DNA of 64,000 nt from Flagellimonas sp. HMM57 (GTDB lineage Bacteria > Bacteroidota > Bacteroidia > Flavobacteriales > Flavobacteriaceae), in the NCBI RefSeq assembly GCF_021390175.1, contig NZ_CP090004.1, positions 3,215,001-3,279,000 of the forward strand, given 5' to 3'. Both the position numbers and the translations under genes were made by a program. The notes beneath the pieces are model-generated. The model was given only the letters and a program-made list of their open reading frames with translations, did not search any database and was not told the DNA's origin. This document shows positions 9,608 to 37,517 of the stretch, piece by piece. Position 1 is the first letter of the stretch; every line of letters starts with the position of its first letter.

Positions 9608-10330
9608 TTAGTACTTATGCACACTTCCAGAAACAGATTTTTTCTTTTTGACGCTTGCTTCACCAGTATAGGATATATCCGCTCCACTGCTCGCATCGGC
9701 AACGAGGGATTCGGATACATTTACCGAAATATCAGAACCGCTACTGGCGTCTGCATTACATGTTTTGGCCATAAGTTCGCGCGCCCTAATATCCGCGCCA
9801 CTACTGGCATCTGCATAAAATGAATCCGTTTTACCTGCAACTTTAATATCCGCTCCGCTACTGGCATCTGCCGATACTTCTACTGCAATAAGTTCTACAT
9901 GTAAATCGGAACCGCTGCTGGCATCCAATTCTATTTTTTCTGATTTGATAACGTTCTGTACAATCAAATCAGAACCACTTGAGCTTTTCAAAGCAGTTAT
10001 TTCTGGGAGCGATACATAAATCTTTTTGGTCGCTCTTCCAATATTCTCCAAAGCATGGATTCGTAGTTTTCCATCTTTGATATCCGTTGCGATTAAATCG
10101 ATAATGTTTTCATCGGCCTCAACGGAAATCTTAAATTCTTGGTCTTGAGTTACAAAGACATCCAAACCTTCTGAAGCGGATACCACGGTGAAATCTTCAG
10201 TTACATTTCTGGATTCTTCTACTACTTCGCCATTTCCTTTTTTTCCATCTCCAAAATTGATATCGAAGGCGCAGGAAGATGCAAAAATGGAAACTAATAG
10301 TGCGATTGCGATTTTTGCTAGTGTTGTCAT
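9608..10330 (-). CDS. Head GIN domain (DUF2807) lipoprotein
   Basis: A 240-residue lipoprotein with signal sequence and lipobox (ASSC, Cys near residue 20). The body is one DUF2807 domain. From about residue 115 it carries repeated DASSGADI or DASSGSDL units at about 16-20 residue intervals, which predicts a right-handed beta-helix. The C-terminus is basic. It follows the PspC gene by 164 bp on the same strand, a common flavobacterial arrangement (PadR, PspC, DUF2807). The family has no proven biochemical role, and an envelope-stress link is inferred from the neighbours. Confidence 0.88.
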   Translation of the reverse strand: MTTLAKIAIALLVSIFASSCAFDINFGDGKKGNGEVVEESRNVTEDFTVVSASEGLDVFVTQDQEFKISVEADENIIDLIATDIKDGKLRIHALENIGRATKKIYVSLPEITALKSSSGSDLIVQNVIKSEKIELDASSGSDLHVELIAVEVSADASSGADIKVAGKTDSFYADASSGADIRARELMAKTCNADASSGSDISVNVSESLVADASSGADISYTGEASVKKKKSVSGSVHKY

Positions 10331-10494
10331 GATTGTTGTTTTTTACCCTAAGCTTGTTTCAGGGTCTGTTAATAATTGATTGATATGGTTCTTTGTTTTT
10401 TGCGATGCTGAAATAAACTCAGTATGAAATTCGTGTTTATTATTGTTTAATTCTTTTAAAGGTTTCCCAATTGTTGAAAAAGAGGACCCAACTG

Positions 10495-12225
10495 TTAGTT
10501 TTTTTCTTTGGCCTTTATTTTTATGCCGTCCTCATTGATCTTTACCTTGAGCGCATCGTCACCATCCTCTAGGTCAATATCAATACCATCTTCGTTTATG
10601 ATAATATGACCGTCTTCGTCTTCGCTTTCGTAAGAATTTGAACGTTCTGGGCAATCCTGGCATTTGAGCTCCCCATCTTCTCCCATGATCCAAGTATATT
10701 CTACTATACTGCTTCTATAATAATCTTGATCATTTTTTATGCCCCGTCCTACATATCCGTGTACGGATTCTGCAAACTGTACTACAGTACCTTCTGGAAT
10801 ATAGATGGTCGAGGTCACCTCTTGGTTTCTAGCCTTATTTGAAGTTGATGTAGTAAGAAATTCATCCAACAAAATCTCATTTGGCATTAATTCATAGTCA
10901 TAATTAATTTGCTTTGCCCTTTCCCTTGCTGCAAGCGTAGTATTACCATGCGAATCTTTTCTAATGTTCAATCGTAAATAGGAATCGTCAGATTTTCTCA
11001 GTTTGATATCCACATCATCGGATATCAAAATTCTATTATCATCTTCGTCATACGTAAAGGTCATTCGCCCAAAATGAACATCATCCATACCATAGTCAAA
11101 TCTGGAGTTCTTCATTTTTATGAGTAACGTATCTCCTGGATTTTCAATTAATACTTCATCTTTAATGTTGACGCTCCCCACGTTGGCAAATTCAGCAGCT
11201 TGTCGTAATCCAAGGACGAACAAGGTTCCGATAGAAATTAACCAAAGCCCCAAAAGTGAAAATTTTGCAATGTTCCCTATGGATTTTAAGTTGTTTACCA
11301 AAATCTTCAGTCCTAAATACAGCAAGAAAAAGAATGGAATTCCTATGGTAAAGAATATCAAAATAGATACGACCCAAACAGGAGCGCCTGTTGTGTTCAC
11401 TATCTCATAAAAATCGATACCCGGAAAGTGCACTGCATTGAACATTCCTACGCTAAAGAGTGCTACAAACAATCCTATAAGCATTGAAGCACCTATGATA
11501 ATCAATAGTATACCTATGAATTTCCCAAATACTTTGAACAGGAACATGATGATATCTCCTATAGTATCGAAAAAGGTCTTGGAGCCGCTTTTGACCTTGC
11601 CGCCTACTTTTTCGTAGTCGACGTTTTTAACCCTGTCTGCAACATCATCAAACCCCTCTTTGACTTTACGTTCTATATTGCTGATGTTGACAGGCTCTCC
11701 CCGCATGTCCAGTTTTTGCGAAGTTGAGGCGGCTTCCGGTACCAAAATCCACAATAGGATATAAGCCACTAGTCCAAACCCTGAAAATATGGTTAGTAGG
11801 ATAAAAAGGATTCGTATCCAAAGGGAGTCAAAACCTAAGTAATGCTCTAGACCAGAACAGACACCACCAATATATTTTTGGTCCATGTCCCGATACAGCT
11901 TTTTAGTTCTTCGTCTGGTTTCCGGGCGTGTCTTTTTGGGTTCGTCCTCAAAAATGTCCTCATCGACCATATAATCTTCGGGTTGCCCCATGATGTTGAT
12001 GACCTCGTCCACTTCTTTTTGGGTAATCACCTGACGTTCACTTTCCATTTTTTCCAAGAAAAGTTCGGCTACCCTAGCTTCAATATCCGCAATGATCTCG
12101 TCGCTACCAGCAGTGCCAGAAAATGACCGTTTTATGGACTCCAAATAGAGCCTAAGTTTGTTATACGCCTCATCATCTATATGAAAGAGTGTATTTGCTA
12201 GATTTATATTTACTGTCTTGTTCAT
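10495..12225 (-). CDS. PspC-domain membrane protein
   Basis: A 576-residue inner membrane protein. The N-terminal region (1-100) is soluble and acidic. A PspC domain follows at about 108-168 (YIGGVCSGLEHYLG, then a transmembrane helix ending LLWILVPEA). Several more transmembrane segments lie between about 215 and 350. The extracytoplasmic C-terminal domain ends in an acidic repeat rich in EDG and INEDGI. It starts 8 bp after the PadR regulator, so it is co-transcribed. Role inferred: phage-shock-like envelope stress response under PadR control. Confidence 0.9.
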   Translation of the reverse strand: MNKTVNINLANTLFHIDDEAYNKLRLYLESIKRSFSGTAGSDEIIADIEARVAELFLEKMESERQVITQKEVDEVINIMGQPEDYMVDEDIFEDEPKKTRPETRRRTKKLYRDMDQKYIGGVCSGLEHYLGFDSLWIRILFILLTIFSGFGLVAYILLWILVPEAASTSQKLDMRGEPVNISNIERKVKEGFDDVADRVKNVDYEKVGGKVKSGSKTFFDTIGDIIMFLFKVFGKFIGILLIIIGASMLIGLFVALFSVGMFNAVHFPGIDFYEIVNTTGAPVWVVSILIFFTIGIPFFFLLYLGLKILVNNLKSIGNIAKFSLLGLWLISIGTLFVLGLRQAAEFANVGSVNIKDEVLIENPGDTLLIKMKNSRFDYGMDDVHFGRMTFTYDEDDNRILISDDVDIKLRKSDDSYLRLNIRKDSHGNTTLAARERAKQINYDYELMPNEILLDEFLTTSTSNKARNQEVTSTIYIPEGTVVQFAESVHGYVGRGIKNDQDYYRSSIVEYTWIMGEDGELKCQDCPERSNSYESEDEDGHIIINEDGIDIDLEDGDDALKVKINEDGIKIKAKEKN

Positions 12226-12233
12226 TTTTTTGA

Positions 12234-12566
12234 TTATTGTTTTGAGTTGGTAACCAGATTTACTGCATTTCTTAATTCGTCCCAGGTGCCGTTGAGTTCG
12301 TTTAGGAACAACTTTCCGGTTTCGGTGAGCGCGTAGTATTTACGTGGCGGTCCTGAAGTGGACTCTTCCCACCGATAGTTGAGCAATCCAGCATTTTTTA
12401 ACCTTGTCAATAAAGGGTAAATAGTGCCTTCCACTACAAGCATCTTTGCGTCTTTTAAAGCTCCTAGAATTTCCGATGCATATTTGTCCTTATCGTTTAA
12501 GATAGAAAGAATGCAGTATTCTAGAACCCCTTTTCGCATTTGTGCTTTTGTATTTTCTATGTTCAT
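12234..12566 (-). CDS. PadR-family transcriptional regulator
   Basis: A 110-residue cytoplasmic winged-helix repressor. It has the PadR signature LEYCILSIL, then YASEILGALK, GTIYPLLTRLKNAGLL and the wing segment GPPRKYYALTETGK. The C-terminal helix is short, as in PadR subfamily s2. First gene of the operon with PspC and head-GIN proteins, which it presumably autoregulates. The effector is unknown. Confidence 0.95.
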   Translation of the reverse strand: MNIENTKAQMRKGVLEYCILSILNDKDKYASEILGALKDAKMLVVEGTIYPLLTRLKNAGLLNYRWEESTSGPPRKYYALTETGKLFLNELNGTWDELRNAVNLVTNSKQ

Positions 12567-20419: not shown

Positions 20420-20535
20420 GATGATTTTTTTATTGTTATTGATGCCACAAATATCCTTCTGGAGTGTTTGTTTCAAAATTTCAATCTACTGAAATGTAGT
20501 TTTTTAAGGCTGAATTGAATTCAAAATATCAAGGT

Positions 20536-20606
20536 GCAATTCATCCCTGAAATTTTACAATTGGGTCAATGGGATTGGTGCATCAAACCTTGCCTGTGCA
20601 TTTTTG
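20536..20606 (+). promoter_or_regulatory. Candidate LytTR-type direct repeat and promoter of the TonB receptor
   Basis: CAATTCATCCC begins at 20537 and CAATTGGGT at 20558, a 21-bp direct repeat. A degenerate -7 element CATTTTTG is at 20599-20606, 62 bp from the first repeat and 24 bp before the ATG. The same arrangement is found at 31871 and 36136. Confidence 0.65.
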
Positions 20607-20629
20607 CCCCATCAAAATAACGAACAGTC

Positions 20630-22792
20630 ATGAAAAAACTAACCTTTACTTTACTCATACTATTTAATGTCTCATTTCTTCTTTCACAGACAACCATATC
20701 TGGTATTATAACAGATTCAAAAAAGGTTCCGATTGCAGGGGCCAATGTGTATTTAGAAGGTACGTATGATGGTGCATCAACTTCAGAAAATGGTGAATTT
20801 AGTTTTGAGACGGAAGAGACGGGAACACAAACCCTTGTAATCTCTATGCTTTCGTATGATACGCATTACGAAATAGGTGAAGTATCCTATTTTAAAGACT
20901 TACAAATAAGTCTTTTGGAATCTATAAATGCTTTAACGGGCGTTACCCTTACCGCAGGCACTTTTGAAGCGGGAGATAACTCAAAAGTATCTGTTTTAAA
21001 ACCGTTGGACATCGTTACCACTGCCGGAGCGCTAGCGGATATTAGCAGTGCTCTGCAAACCTTGCCCGGTACCACCACCGTTAACGAAGACGGTAGACTA
21101 TTTGTGCGTGGAGGAGAAGCTGGCGAAACACAGGTTTTTATTGATGGTCTTCGGGTTTTTCAGTTTTTTAATGCTACGGCTAACAACATTCCCACCCGGG
21201 GGCGGTTTTCACCCTTTTTGTTTAAAGGGACTACGTTTAGTACAGGTGGATATTCTGCCGAGTACGGACAAGCGCTCTCTAGCGTGCTATTGCTGAATAC
21301 AATCGATATGCCCGATCAGGAAAAGACCGAAATATCCATCATGTCTGTTGGTGGCGGACTTGGTCATACGGAATTATGGGGCGACCAATCCCTGAGCATC
21401 AACACCTCTTATATTAACTTATCTCCCTACGAAGCATTGATTCCTTCGACTCAAGGAATTAGGTGGAACAGTCCTGTTGAATCCTTTTCCGGCGAAACAG
21501 TTTTTAGGAGCAAGGGAGACAAAAGCATGTTGAAGTTGTACACAGGATTCAATTTTTCAAATCTTGATATCAGCCAGGAAGATATCAATTTTGAAGACTT
21601 GGTCAGATTTCGCCTGAAGAATAACAATCTTTACTTCAATTCTTCGTACAAACACTTTTTTGAAAATGATTGGACCCTTTCTACCGGAGCATCATTTTCA
21701 TGGGATGATAATGCGATAGTGGTACAAGAGAATACTATTGACAATGATGAAACCGCTTCGCATATAAAGTTCAAGGTCAAAAAAAGTTTTAGTAGCCGCT
21801 TTAGCTTGAATTTTGGCTCTGAACTTTTTCTAACCGACTTTGATGAAACCTTTGCACAGCCCAACGTCCAGGACTTGAGTATAGGATTTGAGGACCAATT
21901 ATGGGCAAGTTTTGTAGAGACCGATATTTTTTTGAGCAACAAATTTGCCATGAAACTTGGTGTTAGGGCAGAAAATAGTTCCTTGATTGATGATTTTACA
22001 GTTTCTCCAAGAATTTCCCTGGCATATAAACCAGGGGAAAAAGGGCAGTTTTCTTTGGCCTATGGGGATTTTTATCAGAACCCATTGACAGAAGTTGCCA
22101 AGTTTGGACAAGCTTTGGGTTCCGAAAAAACGTCGCATTACCTTTTAAACTATCAATTTTTAAGTGATGGTAAAACCTTCAGGGCTGAAGCTTACTATAA
22201 AGATTACAACAATTTGGTAAAGTATGACACGCAATTACCACAGTTCAATTCTGTATATGATAACTCGGGCAGTGGATATGCTGCTGGATTGGATGTTTTT
22301 TGGCGGGATAACAAAAGTATTGAGAATCTGGATTATTGGGTTTCGTATTCCTATTTAAACACCGAGAGGGACTATAGAAATTTTAGGGAACGCGCTACAC
22401 CAAACTTTGCTCCAGAGCACAATCTTTCTGTAGTTACCAAGTATTGGGTGGATGATTTACGTTCGCAATTGGGTTTTTCATACATATACGGTTCCGGAAG
22501 GCCTTATGACAATCCAAACACAAATGGGTTTTTAACGGAAAAGACAAAGTCCTTTAACAGTTTGAATTTTAACTGGGCATACCTGATAGACCAACAAAAA
22601 ATCCTCTACTTTTCGGTCAATAATGTACTTGGATTCAATAATATCAATAACTATCAGTATGCGAACACCCCAAATGCAAATGGTATTTTTGATAGACAGG
22701 CCATAAGACCTGCGGCGGATAGCTTCTTTTTTGTAGGCTTCTTTTGGACAATAAGCACAGATAAGAAAAGTAACCAGTTGGATAACTTATAA
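20630..22792 (+). CDS. TonB-dependent receptor with carboxypeptidase-regulatory-like domain
   Basis: Outer membrane transporter of 720 residues: signal peptide (about 1-19), carboxypeptidase-regulatory-like domain (about 22-100), plug (about 125-225, RLFVRGGEAGETQVFIDG), and a beta-barrel. It is not a SusC, because it is shorter and has no SusD partner. The promoter carries the repeat shared with the two-component locus 11 kb away, so LytTR control is inferred. A leader ACGAACAGTCATG at the start is nearly identical to that of the TPR gene at 31969. The substrate is unknown. Confidence 0.92.
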   Translation: MKKLTFTLLILFNVSFLLSQTTISGIITDSKKVPIAGANVYLEGTYDGASTSENGEFSFETEETGTQTLVISMLSYDTHYEIGEVSYFKDLQISLLESINALTGVTLTAGTFEAGDNSKVSVLKPLDIVTTAGALADISSALQTLPGTTTVNEDGRLFVRGGEAGETQVFIDGLRVFQFFNATANNIPTRGRFSPFLFKGTTFSTGGYSAEYGQALSSVLLLNTIDMPDQEKTEISIMSVGGGLGHTELWGDQSLSINTSYINLSPYEALIPSTQGIRWNSPVESFSGETVFRSKGDKSMLKLYTGFNFSNLDISQEDINFEDLVRFRLKNNNLYFNSSYKHFFENDWTLSTGASFSWDDNAIVVQENTIDNDETASHIKFKVKKSFSSRFSLNFGSELFLTDFDETFAQPNVQDLSIGFEDQLWASFVETDIFLSNKFAMKLGVRAENSSLIDDFTVSPRISLAYKPGEKGQFSLAYGDFYQNPLTEVAKFGQALGSEKTSHYLLNYQFLSDGKTFRAEAYYKDYNNLVKYDTQLPQFNSVYDNSGSGYAAGLDVFWRDNKSIENLDYWVSYSYLNTERDYRNFRERATPNFAPEHNLSVVTKYWVDDLRSQLGFSYIYGSGRPYDNPNTNGFLTEKTKSFNSLNFNWAYLIDQQKILYFSVNNVLGFNNINNYQYANTPNANGIFDRQAIRPAADSFFFVGFFWTISTDKKSNQLDNL

Positions 22793-31677: not shown

Positions 31678-31870
31678 TTGTTTCTTGATTAAGGTTAAAA
31701 GTTAAATCCTATTATGGTTTACTCTCCTTAATGACATTTGAAAAAAAGAAGGGTTGCATCACCCGGAAAAAATAATTTTTTGACATAAAACTATTCACTA
31801 TCCAAGGTTTTCATCGATGGACAAGTGGGCAGGTAGGCCATGAACTTTTGGTCAATAGCAATCTGAATAC

Positions 31871-31939
31871 AATTCATCCCAAAAATTCTACAATCCGGTA
31901 ATACTTTCTGGTCAAATGATGTCTTTGATTACATTTTTG
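31871..31939 (+). promoter_or_regulatory. Candidate LytTR-type direct repeat and promoter of the TPR-kinase operon
   Basis: CAATTCATCCC begins at 31871 and CAATCCGGT at 31892 (21-bp period). CATTTTTG at 31932-31939 is the -7 candidate, 61 bp from the first repeat and 29 bp before the ATG. The remainder of the 31678-31968 gap holds no gene. Confidence 0.65.
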
Positions 31940-31968
31940 TGACAGCAATAATCAAAAAACGAACAGTT

Positions 31969-32592
31969 ATGCAAACGGTAGTAAAAATTTTAATCTCCTT
32001 ATTGATCGGAACCCTTAGTGCACAAGATCAATATACCAAGGGAATGGAAAAGGCATTTGACTTATGGAAAAACGAAAAAAATGTTGAGGCGTCCAATCTT
32101 TTTGAACGTATTGCAATGGCCGAGCCCGATAACTGGCTGCCTTATTACTATGTAGCACAGGTCAATACTTTTTCCTCCTTTGGCGAGAAGGATGAAGAAA
32201 AATTGACCGAGCAATTGGACAAGGCAAAAGAGTTCTTGGATTTGGCACAAGCCATTTCTTCCAACAATCCCGAGCTCCTTGTTCAGGAAGCAATGATCAA
32301 TACAGCGTGGATCTCTTTTGATGGTGCCAAGTATGGCATGACACTTTCGGGAAAGAACACCCGACTCTATAACCAAGCCTTGGAATTGGCGCCCGAAAAC
32401 CCAAGGGTCATACTTTCCAAAGCAGAATGGGATATGGGTTCTGCTCGCTATTTTGGAAAAGATACCGCACCTTACTGTAGTGATATTGAAAAGGCCTTGG
32501 AACTTTTTGCTACCTTTAAATCCGAAACCCCGTTCTACCCAAGTTGGGGAAAGAAAAGAGCCGAAGAGGTTTTAGAACAGTGTAAGAGCTGA
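31969..32592 (+). CDS. Exported TPR-like protein linked to a LytS-type kinase
   Basis: A 207-residue exported protein with a signal peptide MQTVVKILISLLIGTLSAQ. The helical repeat region has TPR-like segments (FDLWKNEKNVEASNLFERIAMAEPDNWLPYYYVAQ; RLYNQALELAPENPRVILSKAE). The start was chosen at the methionine that gives a signal peptide; its leader ACGAACAGTTATG nearly repeats that of the TonB receptor at 20630. It precedes the histidine kinase by 34 bp. A periplasmic sensing or adaptor role for the kinase is inferred. Confidence 0.8.
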   Translation: MQTVVKILISLLIGTLSAQDQYTKGMEKAFDLWKNEKNVEASNLFERIAMAEPDNWLPYYYVAQVNTFSSFGEKDEEKLTEQLDKAKEFLDLAQAISSNNPELLVQEAMINTAWISFDGAKYGMTLSGKNTRLYNQALELAPENPRVILSKAEWDMGSARYFGKDTAPYCSDIEKALELFATFKSETPFYPSWGKKRAEEVLEQCKS

Positions 32593-32626
32593 TGATGGTC
32601 AGTATGATGCTTTTAAGTTGTAAAAG

Positions 32627-33967
32627 GTGAAAAAAGAGGTCAAAGTAGGTAGTTTAAGACGTGTTTTAATCGTAAGCCTTTATATTACGTTGGCTATACG
32701 CGCACTTAACATACTTATCAATATAGGTAATGGTGTTACGTGGTCCGATGAGCTTGAAAACTTTGGGGTCACTTACATCTATGCATTCATTATAACCGCA
32801 TTCAATGCTTATTACAATGATTTTATCTCTACAAAATATAGCTGGGAACTGCAGGGTAAAAAGCGTCTTTGGTATGGTGCCATTGGCTCTATAGTCGTTA
32901 CTTTAGTAGGATTTGGTCTGGCCAGGGTATTGGTAAATGTGGGGATATACAGTAACTCATTTGATGATTTTTTGGCAAATGAGACCTTGGAGAACTACGT
33001 TTCCACTTTGATTATCGCAATATGTATCTCCGCCATTTTACATGCCTTTCATTTCTACAAAGCTTTACAGGATACTAGGGTAAAAAAGCAACGGATTATA
33101 GCAGGCACGGCCTCTGCCCGTTTTGATGCGCTAAAAAATCAATTGGATCCCCATTTTTTATTCAACAGTCTTAATGTACTTACCAGCCTTATTGAAGAAG
33201 ATCCGCATCAGGCCCAAAAATTCACGACGTCCCTTTCAAAAGTATACCGCTATGTTTTGGAACAGAAAAACAAGGATTTGGTCACAGTGGACGAAGAATT
33301 GAATTTTGCCCGAACCTACGTTAGACTCTTAAAGATGCGGTTTGAGGATAGTATTGTTTTTAATATTCCGGATACATCCAGTGTTCCAGATGCTAAAATA
33401 GTGCCCCTATCATTACAACTGTTGTTGGAGAACGCCGTGAAGCATAACGTTGTGACATCATCAAAACCATTGCATATTACCGTTAAAGAAGAGGGCGGAA
33501 TGCTGATGGTGACCAATAACCTTCAAGAAAAGCAGGTGGTCAAAAAGAGTAGTGGGGTGGGGCTCCAAAATATCCAGCAGCGCTATGAAATTTTAACGGA
33601 TAGACAGGTCCACATTGAAAAAACAACTTCAGATTTTAGTGTGTCGATCCCAATGCTTACTAAAAAAGGATCAACGGTTGAAACGCAGGAATCCCATATT
33701 GCGGAGAAACGTTACCTAAAGGCAAAAGAAAAAGTAGATGCCGTAAAAGGTTTTTATAGCAATCTGATTACGTACTGTATCGTTATTCCATTTTTATGGT
33801 GGCTCAACCTAAAAACCACTAGCTTTCTCTGGGCACTGTTTCCAACAATTGGCTGGGGATTTGGGGTGTTGGCACACGGTATGGAAGCTTATGGCTATAA
33901 TCCACTTTGGGGCAAACGTTGGGAAGAACGTAAGATCCAAGAGCTTATGGACAAGGAGGATTTTTAG
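32627..33967 (+). CDS. LytS-type sensor histidine kinase with C-terminal 2TM domain
   Basis: A 446-residue inner membrane kinase. Four transmembrane helices lie within about 12-145. The His_kinase domain of the LytS type follows, with phosphoacceptor His176 in DPHFLFNSLN and the ATP-binding motifs LLLENAVKHN and GVGLQNIQQR. The C-terminal 85 residues are a 2TM domain (YLKAKEKVDAVKGFYSNL to WEERKIQELM) that closely matches the free 2TM protein at 36247. The GTG start was chosen because an in-frame stop lies directly before it. The partner regulator is the LytTR protein at 37534. Confidence 0.93.
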   Translation: MKKEVKVGSLRRVLIVSLYITLAIRALNILINIGNGVTWSDELENFGVTYIYAFIITAFNAYYNDFISTKYSWELQGKKRLWYGAIGSIVVTLVGFGLARVLVNVGIYSNSFDDFLANETLENYVSTLIIAICISAILHAFHFYKALQDTRVKKQRIIAGTASARFDALKNQLDPHFLFNSLNVLTSLIEEDPHQAQKFTTSLSKVYRYVLEQKNKDLVTVDEELNFARTYVRLLKMRFEDSIVFNIPDTSSVPDAKIVPLSLQLLLENAVKHNVVTSSKPLHITVKEEGGMLMVTNNLQEKQVVKKSSGVGLQNIQQRYEILTDRQVHIEKTTSDFSVSIPMLTKKGSTVETQESHIAEKRYLKAKEKVDAVKGFYSNLITYCIVIPFLWWLNLKTTSFLWALFPTIGWGFGVLAHGMEAYGYNPLWGKRWEERKIQELMDKEDF

Positions 33968-33988
33968 TTGTTCGGTTTAATATGACGG

Positions 33989-34130
33989 TTGACGGATGCG
34001 GGTTTTGGTTTTGGGTGAAGGGTAAAAGGTTTAAGGTTTCAAAGTTTCAAGTTCTAAGCTCTAAGTTCTTGAATTTGACTTCGTACCTCGTACCGCTGAC
34101 TTCCGATATCTGACTTCTGACCTCCGAACT
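33989..34130. repeat. Left flanking repeat tract of the BspA-type gene
   Basis: 33989-34050 resembles the tract on the other side of the gene (TTGACGGATGC, TTTTGGGTGAA, GGTTTCAAAG). From 34040 to 34130 the sequence is 13 consecutive heptamers whose consensus drifts from CTAAGTT to CTGACTT and CCGAACT. No coding capacity is evident. Confidence 0.7.
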
Positions 34131-34146
34131 CATACCCAAACCAAAA

Positions 34147-34179
34147 GGCCACCAAAAAACGTAAAGTTCCTCAGTGGCC
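34147..34179 (-). terminator. Possible terminator of the BspA-type gene
   Basis: GGCCAC (34147-34152) pairs with GTGGCC (34174-34179). On the minus strand it is followed by TTTTGGTTT. The stem is short, so the call is tentative. Confidence 0.35.
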
Positions 34180-34203
34180 CATTGTATTAAAAGTTAAGTT
34201 TAA

Positions 34204-35760
34204 TTACGGACAGAAAACACTGTCTTTATAATCTATGTCCCAATTGGGCCCCATGTCATTTATAAGGGTATTATAAGCGATGCCCCCGTCACCTATGCAC
34301 AGATCTACTCCCGTTGCACCCAAAACCACATTTGGTTGTACCACTTGATCGGCCCACCCTATAAGTGTATCTGAAAAGTTAGGGGCGGACATCCCGGAAT
34401 CGTTGAACATGTTTATCATACTTGAAACGTTGCCTATTTCCCATTCCCCCAGATCTTGGTCGAACGCCGTGGCATCCGCGAACATGTAATCCATATTGGT
34501 AACCTGACTTACATCCCAACCGCTGATGTCCTGATCGAATGCAGTAGCTTCAAAGAACATGGAACGCATATCTTCAACATTGCTTACATCCCAACCGCTG
34601 ATATCCTGATTAAATAGGCTATTACCCCTAAAAGTGTTATTCATGGTTTGAACATTGTCTACATCCCATTCGGTAATGTCCTGTTTAAAATCCGCATTGG
34701 GAAAAGCGTAACTGAACGATGTACATTGCTCAAGGTTGGGTTCGCCCGTTGCATTTATAGCTACATAAATATCATCATTATCCAAGTGAAACATATCCTC
34801 CATACTCTTCCATGCCGTGTCTCCCCATTGCTCCACGGTCCGCAAAGCGTCCTGTCCAAAGAAGCTCAATCGGCCCACTTGCCCTTTTAGGGCCACGGTA
34901 TAAGTGTCCGCAGTTTGGTACTGATGGTACGCTTCCTCTTCGGTCACATGTTCCTCTGGCTGTCCATCGCCCCAATCAATTTGAAAATCGACATCTTCCC
35001 CTTCTCCGAATACTTCTATGTTGAATTCCTCATTGGCACCAGCGGTCTCCAAGGTAAAGATAAAGGATGCCGGGTCCTCGAACAGGTTTTCGATGACGTT
35101 CTTCACGGCTATCTGTACGCTGATCTGGTCCGTGCCCCCATTGCCATCGGAGACGGTCACGGTGATGTTGTGCCCGCTGGTCGTCTCGTAGTCAAGGTTC
35201 TTACCGTCCGCCAAGGTGATCAGGCCGCTTTCATCTATGCTGAACAGTTCTTCATCGTTTCCGTCCGTAATCTCAAAGGTGAGCGTATCGCCTTCATCTT
35301 CATCGGTGGCGGTCACGGTAAAGATGGTGAATTCATTGTTCGCATTCTCATCCACTTCTGTTGTTGTGGTCTGGTTGGTGATTACGGGGGCGGTGTTCTG
35401 CGCTTCCGCTTCGGTCACGGTAAAGGTGTTTCCGGTCACGGTCTCACCACCTACGCCAACACTTACCGCTCCTGTTGTCGCACCCTGGGGAACGGAGATG
35501 GTAAGCTTGGTGGCGGTTGCGGTACTTACGGTAGCCGTAGTGGCACCAATTTTTACGGTGTTGGATGCCGGTGTTGTACTAAAGTTGGTCCCGTTAATGG
35601 TCACCTGTGTGCCAACAGGCCCGGAACTGGGCGTAAAACCACTTATGGTCGGCTTAGTCGGTGTTGGTGTCGGTGTCGTTGTACCATCATCACTTGAACA
35701 GGAGACGGCGAACATTGCAACGGACAGTGTCATCAGAATCAAAAAACGTATTTTTTTCAT
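34204..35760 (-). CDS. BspA-type surface lipoprotein with IPT/TIG and cadherin-like domains
   Basis: A 518-residue lipoprotein. The lipobox AVSC (Cys20) and signal MKKIRFLILM set the start; an in-frame upstream ATG adds a non-signal extension. Domains: IPT/TIG (about 35-115), cadherin-like (about 125-220), a PKD-like stretch (WGDGQPEEH), then BspA/DUF285 repeats with ISGWDVSNVEDMRSMF-type units (about 360-470). Probably a surface adhesin. It is visibly richer in G and C than its neighbours, lies against the direction of the kinase/regulator genes and separates them, and has repeat tracts on both sides, which suggests insertion. Confidence 0.88.
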   Translation of the reverse strand: MKKIRFLILMTLSVAMFAVSCSSDDGTTTPTPTPTKPTISGFTPSSGPVGTQVTINGTNFSTTPASNTVKIGATTATVSTATATKLTISVPQGATTGAVSVGVGGETVTGNTFTVTEAEAQNTAPVITNQTTTTEVDENANNEFTIFTVTATDEDEGDTLTFEITDGNDEELFSIDESGLITLADGKNLDYETTSGHNITVTVSDGNGGTDQISVQIAVKNVIENLFEDPASFIFTLETAGANEEFNIEVFGEGEDVDFQIDWGDGQPEEHVTEEEAYHQYQTADTYTVALKGQVGRLSFFGQDALRTVEQWGDTAWKSMEDMFHLDNDDIYVAINATGEPNLEQCTSFSYAFPNADFKQDITEWDVDNVQTMNNTFRGNSLFNQDISGWDVSNVEDMRSMFFEATAFDQDISGWDVSQVTNMDYMFADATAFDQDLGEWEIGNVSSMINMFNDSGMSAPNFSDTLIGWADQVVQPNVVLGATGVDLCIGDGGIAYNTLINDMGPNWDIDYKDSVFCP

Positions 35761-35824
35761 GAGCTCGAAATTTAGCGTTAGAGCTTGCAAGAAAACAGGA
35801 ATATAGATCGGTGACCCATGGCAA

Positions 35825-36033
35825 TTGACGGATGCAGGGTTTGGGTTGACGGATGGGGGTGTTGGGTTTTGGGTGAAAGGTTTCAAAGTTGCAGAGTTTC
35901 AAAGTTTCAAAGTTGAGAAGTTGAGAAGTTGAGAAGGGTCGTTATCGAGGTGAAGGGTTTTGGGTGAAAGGTTTTGGGTGAAAAGGGGTGTTTTTCAGAC
36001 ATCAGACATCAGAAATCGGAAATCAGAAGTCAG
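35825..36033. repeat. Right flanking repeat tract of the BspA-type gene
   Basis: 35825-35880 repeats TTGACGGATG/TTGGGTGAAAGG motifs shared with the left tract. 35881-35936 is seven period-8 units (TTTCAAAG to TTGAGAAG). 35949-35990 is three 14-bp units (GGTGAAAGGTTTTG). 35996-36033 is period-7 CAGACAT/CAGAAAT/CGGAAAT/CAGAAGT. The rest of the 35761-36246 gap holds the promoter of the 2TM operon and no other gene. Confidence 0.8.
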
Positions 36034-36135
36034 TTGTTAGGAGTTAGGGATTACAAGTAAACAAGTTGTAAGCATATTCGATTCCAATACCCAACACCTT
36101 TTACCCTTCACCTTATACCTAATTCCCAATCCCTA

Positions 36136-36205
36136 CAATTCATCCCTAAAAACCAACAGTTCGCGAATCTACTTTTTCACTTGCTTTTCAATATCCCGAA
36201 GTTTG
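36136..36205 (+). promoter_or_regulatory. Candidate LytTR-type direct repeat and promoter of the 2TM/LytTR operon
   Basis: CAATTCATCCC begins at 36136 and CAGTTCGCG at 36157 (21-bp period). GAAGTTTG at 36198-36205 is the -7 candidate, 62 bp from the first repeat and 42 bp before the first gene. This is the third copy of the arrangement in the window. Confidence 0.62.
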
Positions 36206-36246: not shown

Positions 36247-36525
36247 ATGAAAGACTTCAATGAAAACAGATACACAAGAGCAAAGGAAAAAGTTGATACT
36301 ATTAAATCTCTCTATTCCAGTTTGTTTGCGTATTGTATTGTCATTCCTATTTTGGCTTATATCAATTATAGGACAACCAGTTTTCTTTGGTTCGTTTTTC
36401 CTGCACTGGGTTGGGGAATAGGATTGGTCGCAAATTGGATGGGCATTTATGGGTATAATCCTATTTTTGGCAGAGACTGGGAAGAGCGTAAAATCAAGGA
36501 ATTCATGAACAACACTAAATTCTAA
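36247..36525 (+). CDS. 2TM-domain protein (first of four)
   Basis: A 92-residue inner membrane protein that is one 2TM domain: a basic amphipathic start (RYTRAKEKVDTIKSLYSSL), two helices, and the end motif GYNPIFGRDWEERKIKEFM. It closely resembles the C-terminal domain of the kinase at 32627, which suggests duplication or fission of that module. It is first in a row of four 2TM genes leading to the LytTR regulator. Function unknown; a role in signalling to the kinase is inferred from location. Confidence 0.88.
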   Translation: MKDFNENRYTRAKEKVDTIKSLYSSLFAYCIVIPILAYINYRTTSFLWFVFPALGWGIGLVANWMGIYGYNPIFGRDWEERKIKEFMNNTKF

Positions 36526-36569: not shown

Positions 36570-36872
36570 ATGGAAAATTTAAGCAAGGAAAATAAATATG
36601 TAAAGGCAAGGGAGAGGGTTATTCAATTAAAAAAGTTTTACGCAAACCTTTGGACGTATATTATTGTAATTTCAGCTTTGGCATTGATCAACTATTTAAC
36701 CAACGGATTTAGCTATGCATGGTTTTTGTGGGCTGCATTTGGATGGGGGATAGGTGTCTTTTTTCATGCCATAGGAACCTTTGACCTCAACCCATTTTTT
36801 GGAAAAAACTGGGAAGAGCGTAAGATTAGGCAGTTTATGCAAAAAGAAGAAGAAAACGATAAATGGAGATAG
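36570..36872 (+). CDS. 2TM-domain protein (second of four)
   Basis: A 100-residue 2TM protein (KYVKARERVIQLKKFYANLW, helices about 26-46 and 52-72, end FGKNWEERKIRQFM). It lies 44 bp after the first copy. Its stop overlaps an upstream ATG of the third copy, so translation may be coupled. Confidence 0.88.
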   Translation: MENLSKENKYVKARERVIQLKKFYANLWTYIIVISALALINYLTNGFSYAWFLWAAFGWGIGVFFHAIGTFDLNPFFGKNWEERKIRQFMQKEEENDKWR

Positions 36873-36874
36873 TT

Positions 36875-37180
36875 ATGGAGCCATATAATCAAGAAAAATT
36901 AAAACGTGCAAAGAACCAGATCGAAAAGCTAAAAGGGTTTTATGTTCACATAGCAGTTTATGTCATCGTGAATGCCTTCATCCTTTTTAATATCTATAGA
37001 AACACCGAGGATTTTTGGGAATGGGGTCATTTTGTAACGCTTTTTGGATGGGGCATTGGACTTTTTTTCCATGCGGCCAAGACTTTTGATTTTAATCCAC
37101 TTTTTAATAAAAAGTGGGAAGAAAGGCAGATCAAAAAATATATAGAAGAAGATAAAAAAGAAATGGATAAATACATGTAA
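36875..37180 (+). CDS. 2TM-domain protein (third of four)
   Basis: A 101-residue 2TM protein (KLKRAKNQIEKLKGFYVHIA, end FNKKWEERQIKKYI). The ATG at 36875, two bases after the previous stop, was chosen. An in-frame ATG at 36863 would overlap the preceding gene by 10 bp and add four residues. Confidence 0.85.
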   Translation: MEPYNQEKLKRAKNQIEKLKGFYVHIAVYVIVNAFILFNIYRNTEDFWEWGHFVTLFGWGIGLFFHAAKTFDFNPLFNKKWEERQIKKYIEEDKKEMDKYM

Positions 37181-37181
37181 T

Positions 37182-37517
37182 ATGAAAAATCTAGAAACTA
37201 GTAGGGAAAGAGCAGAAAAAAGAGTAAAACAACTAAAGAAGTTTTATTCGCACTTGAGTATTTACATTATCATCAATATCATCATATTCTGTATAAAGGC
37301 GTATCATTATGATTTTTTCCAAGATATAGGTTCAGAAGCCTTTAACTATAACAATTGGTTGATATGGGACTTGGTATCCACACCAGTAATCTGGGGAATT
37401 TTTCTTGTTGTTCATGCAATCCGGGTCTTTAGCCACTCCCGTGTAGAAAAGTGGGAAGCCAAGCAGATTCAAAAATATATGGAACAAGAAGAACGGGATA
37501 CACGTACTTTTGAATAA
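37182..37517 (+). CDS. 2TM-domain protein (fourth of four)
   Basis: A 111-residue diverged 2TM protein (RAEKRVKQLKKFYSHLSIYI, two helices with a longer loop between them, end VEKWEAKQIQKYM). It starts one base after the third copy and ends 16 bp before the response regulator, so all five genes are one operon. Confidence 0.85.
   Translation: MKNLETSRERAEKRVKQLKKFYSHLSIYIIINIIIFCIKAYHYDFFQDIGSEAFNYNNWLIWDLVSTPVIWGIFLVVHAIRVFSHSRVEKWEAKQIQKYMEQEERDTRTFE

Follow-up and report, generated by a model that had tools for sequence, protein, structure and literature searches.

BtsS/BtsR of E. coli pairs a LytS-type kinase with a receiver-LytTR regulator and a direct-repeat operator, and in both BtsSR and YpdAB a transporter stands at the core of a narrow regulon. 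The half-sites of AgrA in S. aureus are of the ACAGTT type. YpdA/YpdB of E. coli likewise combines a LytS-type kinase, a receiver-LytTR regulator and a direct-repeat operator, and the account of YpdB gives two 9–11-bp repeats with an 11–13-bp spacer as the yardstick for LytTR operators (PMC4847170). AgrA acts on direct repeats centred near -60 at promoters with suboptimal core elements, with R198 and N201 contacting the DNA (PMC4227749). Published LytTR operons mostly carry 9-bp repeats separated by 12 bp, which tend to lie 10 bp ahead of the -35 element, while an example from B. thetaiotaomicron that resembles the LytTR regulatory systems (LRS) is presented with 11-bp repeats and the arrangement TGTA-19-TATCTTTG (PMC6193735). 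Here we describe a related locus in a 64,000-nucleotide stretch of the Flagellimonas sp. HMM57 genome (NZ_CP090004.1, positions 3,215,001 to 3,279,000; hereafter the window), where short direct repeats precede the operons of a LytS-type histidine kinase and of a LytTR response regulator.

In HMM57, a marine flavobacterium, and in most other Flavobacteriaceae, a conserved pair of sensor and regulator very probably activates its own genes together with those for an outer-membrane uptake receptor and a small number of exported proteins. We put the probability at roughly 0.88 that the repeats are the operator of the locus's own two-component system, through which the phosphorylated regulator (gene 37534) would activate the kinase, itself, a TonB-dependent receptor and the exported proteins. 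Computation established the sites, their fixed geometry, their conservation, their genome-wide specificity and their co-occurrence with the regulator. Sites were scored with R1, a sequence-only model from a 78-column alignment. It was trained on 115 distinct sites with at most two mismatches to CARTTCATC-N12-CARTTSRG-N33-SAnnTTTG, taken from 100 stretches of other genomes; the HMM57 genome (4.16 Mb, one contig) supplied no training row. Coordinates are collected in Table 1.

Table 1. Predicted operators and genes of the locus and its surroundings in the window (TSS, transcription start site; E values of operators are from R1).
Feature	Coordinates	Strand	Details
TonB-dependent receptor operator/promoter	20536..20606	+	half-sites from 20537, 20558; -7 box CATTTTTG 20599-20606; predicted TSS ~20611; E 7.7e-8
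DUF2141 operator/promoter	20448..20518	-	half-sites CAATTCAGC (20517), CATTTCAGT (20496); -7 box GATATTTG 20455-20448; predicted TSS ~20443; E 2.7e-11
TPR-kinase operon operator/promoter	31869..31939	+	half-sites from 31870, 31891; -7 box CATTTTTG 31932-31939; predicted TSS ~31944; E 1.7e-8
2TM-LytTR operon operator/promoter	36135..36205	+	half-sites from 36136, 36157; T-run +37 to +41; -7 box GAAGTTTG 36198-36205; predicted TSS ~36210; E 8.3e-7
Weaker probable operator before Head-GIN	10494 to 10465	-	CAGTTGGGT (10494)-N12-CAATTGGGA (10473), 21-bp period
TPR-like protein, 207 aa, first gene of kinase operon	31969..32592	+	PF14559 below its cut-off
LytS-type histidine kinase, C-terminal 2TM domain, 446 aa	32627..33967	+	PF06580 7.8e-26
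2TM protein 1	36247..36525	+	PF13239
2TM protein 2	36570..36872	+	PF13239
2TM protein 3	36863..37180	+	PF13239
2TM protein 4	37182..37517	+	PF13239
LytTR response regulator, receiver + LytTR, 251 aa	37534..38289	+	PF00072 1.5e-14, PF04397 1.1e-22
TonB-dependent receptor, 720 aa, carboxypeptidase-regulatory domain + plug	20630..22792	+	domain search
DUF2141 protein, 139 aa	20000..20419	-	PF09912
Head-GIN (DUF2807) putative lipoprotein, 240 aa	9608..10330	-	directly behind PspC/Toastrack and PadR
PspC/Toastrack gene	10495-12225	-	upstream of Head-GIN gene
PadR gene	12234-12566	-	upstream of PspC/Toastrack gene
Large surface-type protein (DUF285, TIG, cadherin-like)	34204..35760	-	domain search; between kinase and 2TM genes

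Exact copies of CAATTCATCCC occur on the plus strand at 20537, 31870 and 36136, where the half-sites are ACARTT(C/G)RK-like with a 21-bp period. The initial annotation had reported all three sites and placed two of them correctly; its middle site, given as 31871/31892, lies one base too high. The second half-sites that it saw 21 bp further on are indeed there (CAATTG, CAATCC and CAGTTC). Its -7 boxes at 31932, 36198 and 20599 also stand, all lacking the T of TAnnTTTG and thus off-consensus (nAnnTTTG), but the distances of 61, 62 and 62 bp that it gave are exactly +62 in all three cases. What it called 21-bp direct repeats are a real repeat and a real period, but the repeats themselves are 9–11 bp long. 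Its regulon proved too narrow, as it overlooked a minus-strand site before the DUF2141 gene and the weaker one at 10494, probably belonging to the Head-GIN gene. The former, running from 20517 to 20448, is the fourth site of the set; it has two mismatches to the pattern and the best R1 score in the genome, and faces the divergent DUF2141 gene, back to back with the site at 20537. The first bases of these two operators are 20 bp apart between the divergent DUF2141 and TonB-receptor genes, and the same divergent pair is present in two other loci (L191, L192). A leader, AACGAACAGTyATG, stands at the start codon of both the TonB receptor (20618-20632) and the TPR gene (31959-31971), and likewise behind two sites of locus L062.

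The specificity of the sites lies in the whole pattern. With one mismatch allowed, the first half-site by itself is not a rare sequence, which could favour chance or a dispersed repeat: the window holds four single half-sites with up to one mismatch compared with 2.02 expected, and 13 of 100 shuffles reach four (not significant). With up to three mismatches, however, CAATTCATCCC-N10-CARTTC matches the genome 44 times against eight for the reversed pattern, and with zero or one mismatch only at 20537, 31870 and 36136. The R1 scan of the genome gave four strong matches (E 2.7e-11 to 8.3e-7), with the fifth-best at E 0.05, and all four lie inside the window within ~17 kb of the regulator gene. 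For comparison with relatives, up to 15 kb of sequence surrounding the regulator orthologue was extracted as one locus from each of 80 genomes, out of 102 with a match; contig ends cut four of these loci short. At 18 bits or more, a position matrix of 115 sites found 129 sites in 76 of these 80 loci and none in reversed or dinucleotide-shuffled sequence, even at 10 bits; this matrix was trained partly on sites from the same loci, making the held-out scan of the HMM57 genome the cleaner test. Chance occurrence is ruled out by that scan together with the reversed and shuffled controls, and a dispersed repeat by the finding of just four strong sites in 4.16 Mb, so that the probability of either is practically nil.

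The sites are also consistent in the genes that they precede. All but three of the 129 (126) stand before five classes, namely TPR (41), TonB receptor (31), 2TM (22), kinase (16) and DUF2141 (16) genes; the others precede different genes, one in L067 and two in L081. In the four site-free loci (L101, L120, L129, L131) the regulator was the sole query gene matched. The genomes of L101, L120 and L131 (G054, G074 and G033) have pattern matches elsewhere, and that of L129 (G087) has its kinase operon, with a site, at another location. Among 80 named loci, 75 carry 154 sites, all before the same five classes, and 147 of these sites differ from every training row. Outside the family, in three loci of family f5 genomes (L324-L326), the first half-site drifts from CARTTCATC towards CRRTTCRG, so that the two half-sites resemble each other; this accompanies a diverged regulator (48–49% identity in two of the three).

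The distance between operator and promoter is fixed. Among sites chosen on half-sites alone, nAnnTTTG lies at +62 in 46 of 51, and at scores of at least 18 in 108 of 125 and 134 of 152; any other offset occurs at most twice in the two larger sets. The base at +62 in the 113 boxed sites of the relatives' loci is G in 56, C in 47, A in seven and T in three, and in the named loci G in 63, C in 60, T in nine and A in two. By comparison, xAnnTTTG boxes in 888 other upstream regions of the same loci (upstream of open frames of at least 150 aa) favour T (T 176, A 89, G 38, C 34, of 337). A T at +39, a position in no search pattern, is found in 107 of 108 and 132 of 134 boxed sites and in all four strong window sites. 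The sigma-A box is placed at -12 to -5 in the promoter description of PMC9723704, which sets the predicted start at ~+74 and gives predicted leaders of 24 (DUF2141), 19 (TonB receptor), 25 (TPR) and 37 (2TM) bases. This puts the centre of the half-sites at -60.5 relative to the predicted start. A gap of 10 bp separates them from the downstream T-run, which on this alignment occupies the expected place of the -33 element without its regular final G. In its passage on F. johnsoniae, PMC7366714 reports the -33 motif as not identifiable. The transcriptome paper on F. psychrophilum has variants of TAnnTTTG, and its main text lacks the terms 'LytTR', 'direct repeat' and '2TM' (PMC9723704).

Such a uniform departure from TAnnTTTG is what the site of an alternative sigma factor could look like, and the conserved block might on this ground belong to such a factor or to an unrelated regulator. 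Conservation nevertheless extends from the -7 box over 62 bases of upstream sequence and includes a two-turn direct repeat, unlike a sigma site, while the half-sites and spacing fit LytTR operators and a LytTR gene co-occurs. The probability left to this explanation is very slight.

The presence of sites follows that of the regulator. Across 120 genomes of the family, HMM57 included, an orthologue at E ≤ 1e-90 was found in 93. A pattern match with up to three mismatches occurs in 91 of these 93 and in seven of the 27 others (Fisher 6e-15), compared with eight of all 120 for the reversed pattern. Four of the seven exceptions (G004, G007, G041, G092) are three-mismatch matches without R1 support, and in G079 the regulator is cut by a contig end. 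In G087, one of the genomes missed by the pattern, R1 finds the site before the kinase operon. At E ≤ 1e-6, in a chosen set of 36 genomes, R1 matched nine of ten with an orthologue and two of 26 without (G006, G051); the next matches, G115 and G046 (E 2e-5 and 3e-5), have no site of at least 18 bits. Across 99 genomes of the order, R1 at E ≤ 1e-5 matched all 12 with the regulator (E ≤ 1e-70) and three of 87 without. For G000 and G119, two of the twelve, the test is not independent of the preceding analysis; without them the count is ten of ten. Two of the three exceptions (G184, G214) have, within the 15-kb stretch that contains the sites, a regulator homologue of 48–49% identity. Sites are also found in trans, before the G087 kinase operon far from the regulator and far from the regulator in G213.

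These results bear on the broader claims of the initial annotation. A motif scattered at random across the genome, or a repeat not conserved at orthologous loci, is what it had named as speaking against its proposal; the four strong R1 matches, all in the window, contradict the first and the occurrence of at least one site in 76 of 80 loci contradicts the second. Its autoregulated LytTR regulon gains support, since sites precede both the TPR-kinase (31870) and the regulator (36136) operons and their presence tracks the orthologue. Its description of the promoters as activator-dependent is favoured by the geometry and by the G or C at the first -7 base, with activation itself something we infer.

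Several observations weigh against the proposed system. The co-occurrence of regulator and sites is confounded by shared ancestry, as the counts ignore relatedness. No regulator was found in G051 (88% complete), in which a TonB-receptor-like stretch is preceded by a site. G116 has the regulator, but the pattern does not match there and no match of the profile has an E value under 0.0097. In the order, G199 has sites before a TonB receptor and a TPR gene and its regulator was not identified. Within the window, the sites at 20537 and 31870 are without T at +40 and +41, and the Head-GIN operator at 10494 is without a canonical -7 box at +62. Lastly, G006 keeps good sites before its DUF2141 and Head-GIN genes without a regulator orthologue. 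As G006 has nine other LytTR matches, this could mean that a different LytTR protein is the main binder and that the neighbouring kinase and regulator are mere targets. HMM57 itself encodes 24 LytTR proteins (E ≤ 1e-5), and the half-sites of different LytTR regulators can be similar. The sites are mostly absent where the orthologue is absent, however, and no strong site of HMM57 has one of the other 23 LytTR genes close by, the nearest of these being ~127 kb from gene 37534. A different main binder is hence considered unlikely.

With regulator 37534 as the binder, the data suggest how the system may operate; binding, phosphorylation, activation and the role of the 2TM proteins are what we infer from the sites. 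The membrane kinase (gene 32627) would sense a cue and phosphorylate D53 of the regulator, a dimer of which would bind the half-sites 21 bp apart, equal to two helical turns, on one face of the DNA with its centre at -60.5. The bound regulator may then recruit or remodel sigma-A RNA polymerase at promoters that appear weak by design, with G or C for T at the first -7 base and a -33 T-run without the regular final G. As both the TPR-kinase and the 2TM-LytTR operons would be targets, a positive feedback loop is predicted. The other putative targets are the TonB-dependent receptor, the divergent DUF2141 gene and probably the Head-GIN gene behind PspC. The direction of control is unreadable from sequence alone, and the same regulator might instead repress or merely tune these promoters. 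This is given quite a small chance, since the operators stop far short of the -7 box, the spacing is fixed and the -7 element is off-consensus, all in the manner of activated promoters.

The regulator and kinase of the locus retain their catalytic residues. In the regulator, E7, D8 and E9, D53, T77/T78 and K98 are near-invariant across the 80 relatives plus the window, and the best named match is from Flagellimonas sp. 389 (100% over 251 aa). The kinase, found in 73 of the 80 loci, has near-invariant H176, N269 and G312 (73 relatives plus the window). Genes 31969 and 32627 form one unit (TPR-kinase), and the TPR-like gene, whose product by our own reading of the sequence carries a signal peptide, adjoins the kinase in many relatives. 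Genes 36247, 36570, 36863, 37182 and 37534 form a second unit with gaps of 44, -10, 1 and 16 bp. Relatives (L061-L140) differ in how many stand-alone 2TM genes they have between kinase and regulator, from none to seven 2TM-labelled tblastn hits. A sequence search of solved structures with the TonB receptor returned no relative at E ≤ 0.01. The DUF2141 protein is apparently exported, and its AlphaFold model (pLDDT 82) is mostly beta strands after one N-terminal helix. With Foldseek no match to it reached E ≤ 0.001, and the leading hits (pilins, starch-binding and other domains) had low TM-scores, so no function is assigned.

The site at 10494 is a probable fifth operator, counted as such because the Head-GIN genes of several relatives carry full sites. 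Its half-site score is 14.6, and no reversed control over 1.19 Mb reached 12, although under R1 it has only E 0.116. Among 18 distinct upstream stretches of Head-GIN genes the half-site score is at least 30 in 12, 14.6 in the window's own and absent in five, in a comparison where most Head-GIN loci were fetched for holding a site. PadR, PspC/Toastrack and Head-GIN form one unit (9608-12566), and the operator begins at the PspC stop codon, which suggests an internal promoter for Head-GIN within this unit. In G006, the copy of the locus (L186) is decaying, with no regulator or kinase match, a 17-aa TonB-receptor remnant behind the operator and TPR hits in two frames. Operators persist in this genome all the same, and two of them have intact geometry, before DUF2141 (L186) and Head-GIN (L190).

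A gene whose product is a large surface-type protein (34204-35760) separates the two operons of the locus. Related repeat-rich stretches, inverted relative to each other, border it at 33994-34127 and 36016-36132. Four other partial copies of this repeat DNA are present in the genome, one at the far side of the gene. Among the 80 named loci, several of them cut short, the gene itself is matched at over 100 bits only in L206 (Flagellimonas sp. 389). The region 33987-36132 looks like a species-specific insertion.

Searches of open-licence full-text papers turned up no account of this operator. The analysis resolves the operator to the base and gives the promoter geometry and the predicted targets of a two-component system whose regulator occurs in 93 of the 120 family genomes sampled, and it places 2TM, DUF2141, Head-GIN and TonB-receptor proteins in one testable pathway. 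The locus is also a clear example from nature of the way in which sigma-A promoters of the Bacteroidota may become activator-dependent. A wider joint reading can be put forward tentatively, though it is doubtful that all of it holds. Throughout the Flavobacteriaceae, one LytTR two-component system would rely on a hard-wired code in its promoters, made up of the operator at -60.5, a -7 box that is nearly always SAnnTTTG and a -33 T-run without the regular G, and this would be a general signature of activator dependence at Bacteroidota sigma-A promoters. The 2TM domains, kinase-fused or stand-alone, would be a sensing or inhibiting module that unites the design of LRS with that of two-component systems, and PspC/Toastrack/Head-GIN envelope genes would be tied through the regulon to TonB-receptor uptake.

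Compared with described systems, the regulator has receiver and LytTR domains with the phospho-acceptor Asp and its partners, and the kinase has PF06580 with H, N and G boxes, as in LytS/LytTR two-component systems. The window sites have a 9-12-9 arrangement, within the range of LytTR operators. The regulator scores 111.6 bits against the BtsR equivalog model (NF008677, cut-off 246) and 108.3 against that of LytR (NF010684, cut-off 375), below both cut-offs. LRS of S. mutans and LRS-like operons of Bacteroides are described with the same 9-12-9 repeats, which lie ~10 bp ahead of the -35/-33 element, and with positive autoregulation and operon-encoded membrane proteins. The LRS trait of direct repeats just before the operon's own predicted promoter is likewise seen at 31870 and 36136. 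In LRS, however, the LytTR regulator is held by a membrane inhibitor, whereas the regulator here has a receiver domain and is accompanied by a kinase. Membership of LRS is rejected on account of the receiver domain and the adjacent histidine kinase with its catalytic residues kept. The B. thetaiotaomicron example differs in having a full -7 box (TATCTTTG), the first T being replaced here by G or C.

AgrA shares the operator centre (~-60, compared with -60.5 at the window sites) and the suboptimal core, but its promoters are weak through spacer length and those of the locus through the first -7 base and the missing G at -33. No peptide quorum genes were seen among the genes examined here, unlike the AgrA system. 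When solved structures were searched with the LytTR domain, 13 sequences came up at E ≤ 10; 3d6w was the sole plausible LytTR relative among them (E 0.0019), the others not being LytTR by name. AgrA was not matched, so residues were equated through the published FhRhHRS motif, by which, in our own reading, R198 and N201 of AgrA align with the near-invariant R201 and R204.

The logic of a LytS-type kinase, a LytTR regulator and one transport protein recalls YpdAB and BtsSR. Unlike those systems, the kinase here has a C-terminal 2TM domain, stand-alone 2TM proteins share the regulator operon, and the operons of both regulator and kinase carry the operator. The putative target is a TonB-dependent receptor, read from a Bacteroidota sigma-A promoter. 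Overall, the system is of a known kind, with a promoter specific to the Bacteroidota.

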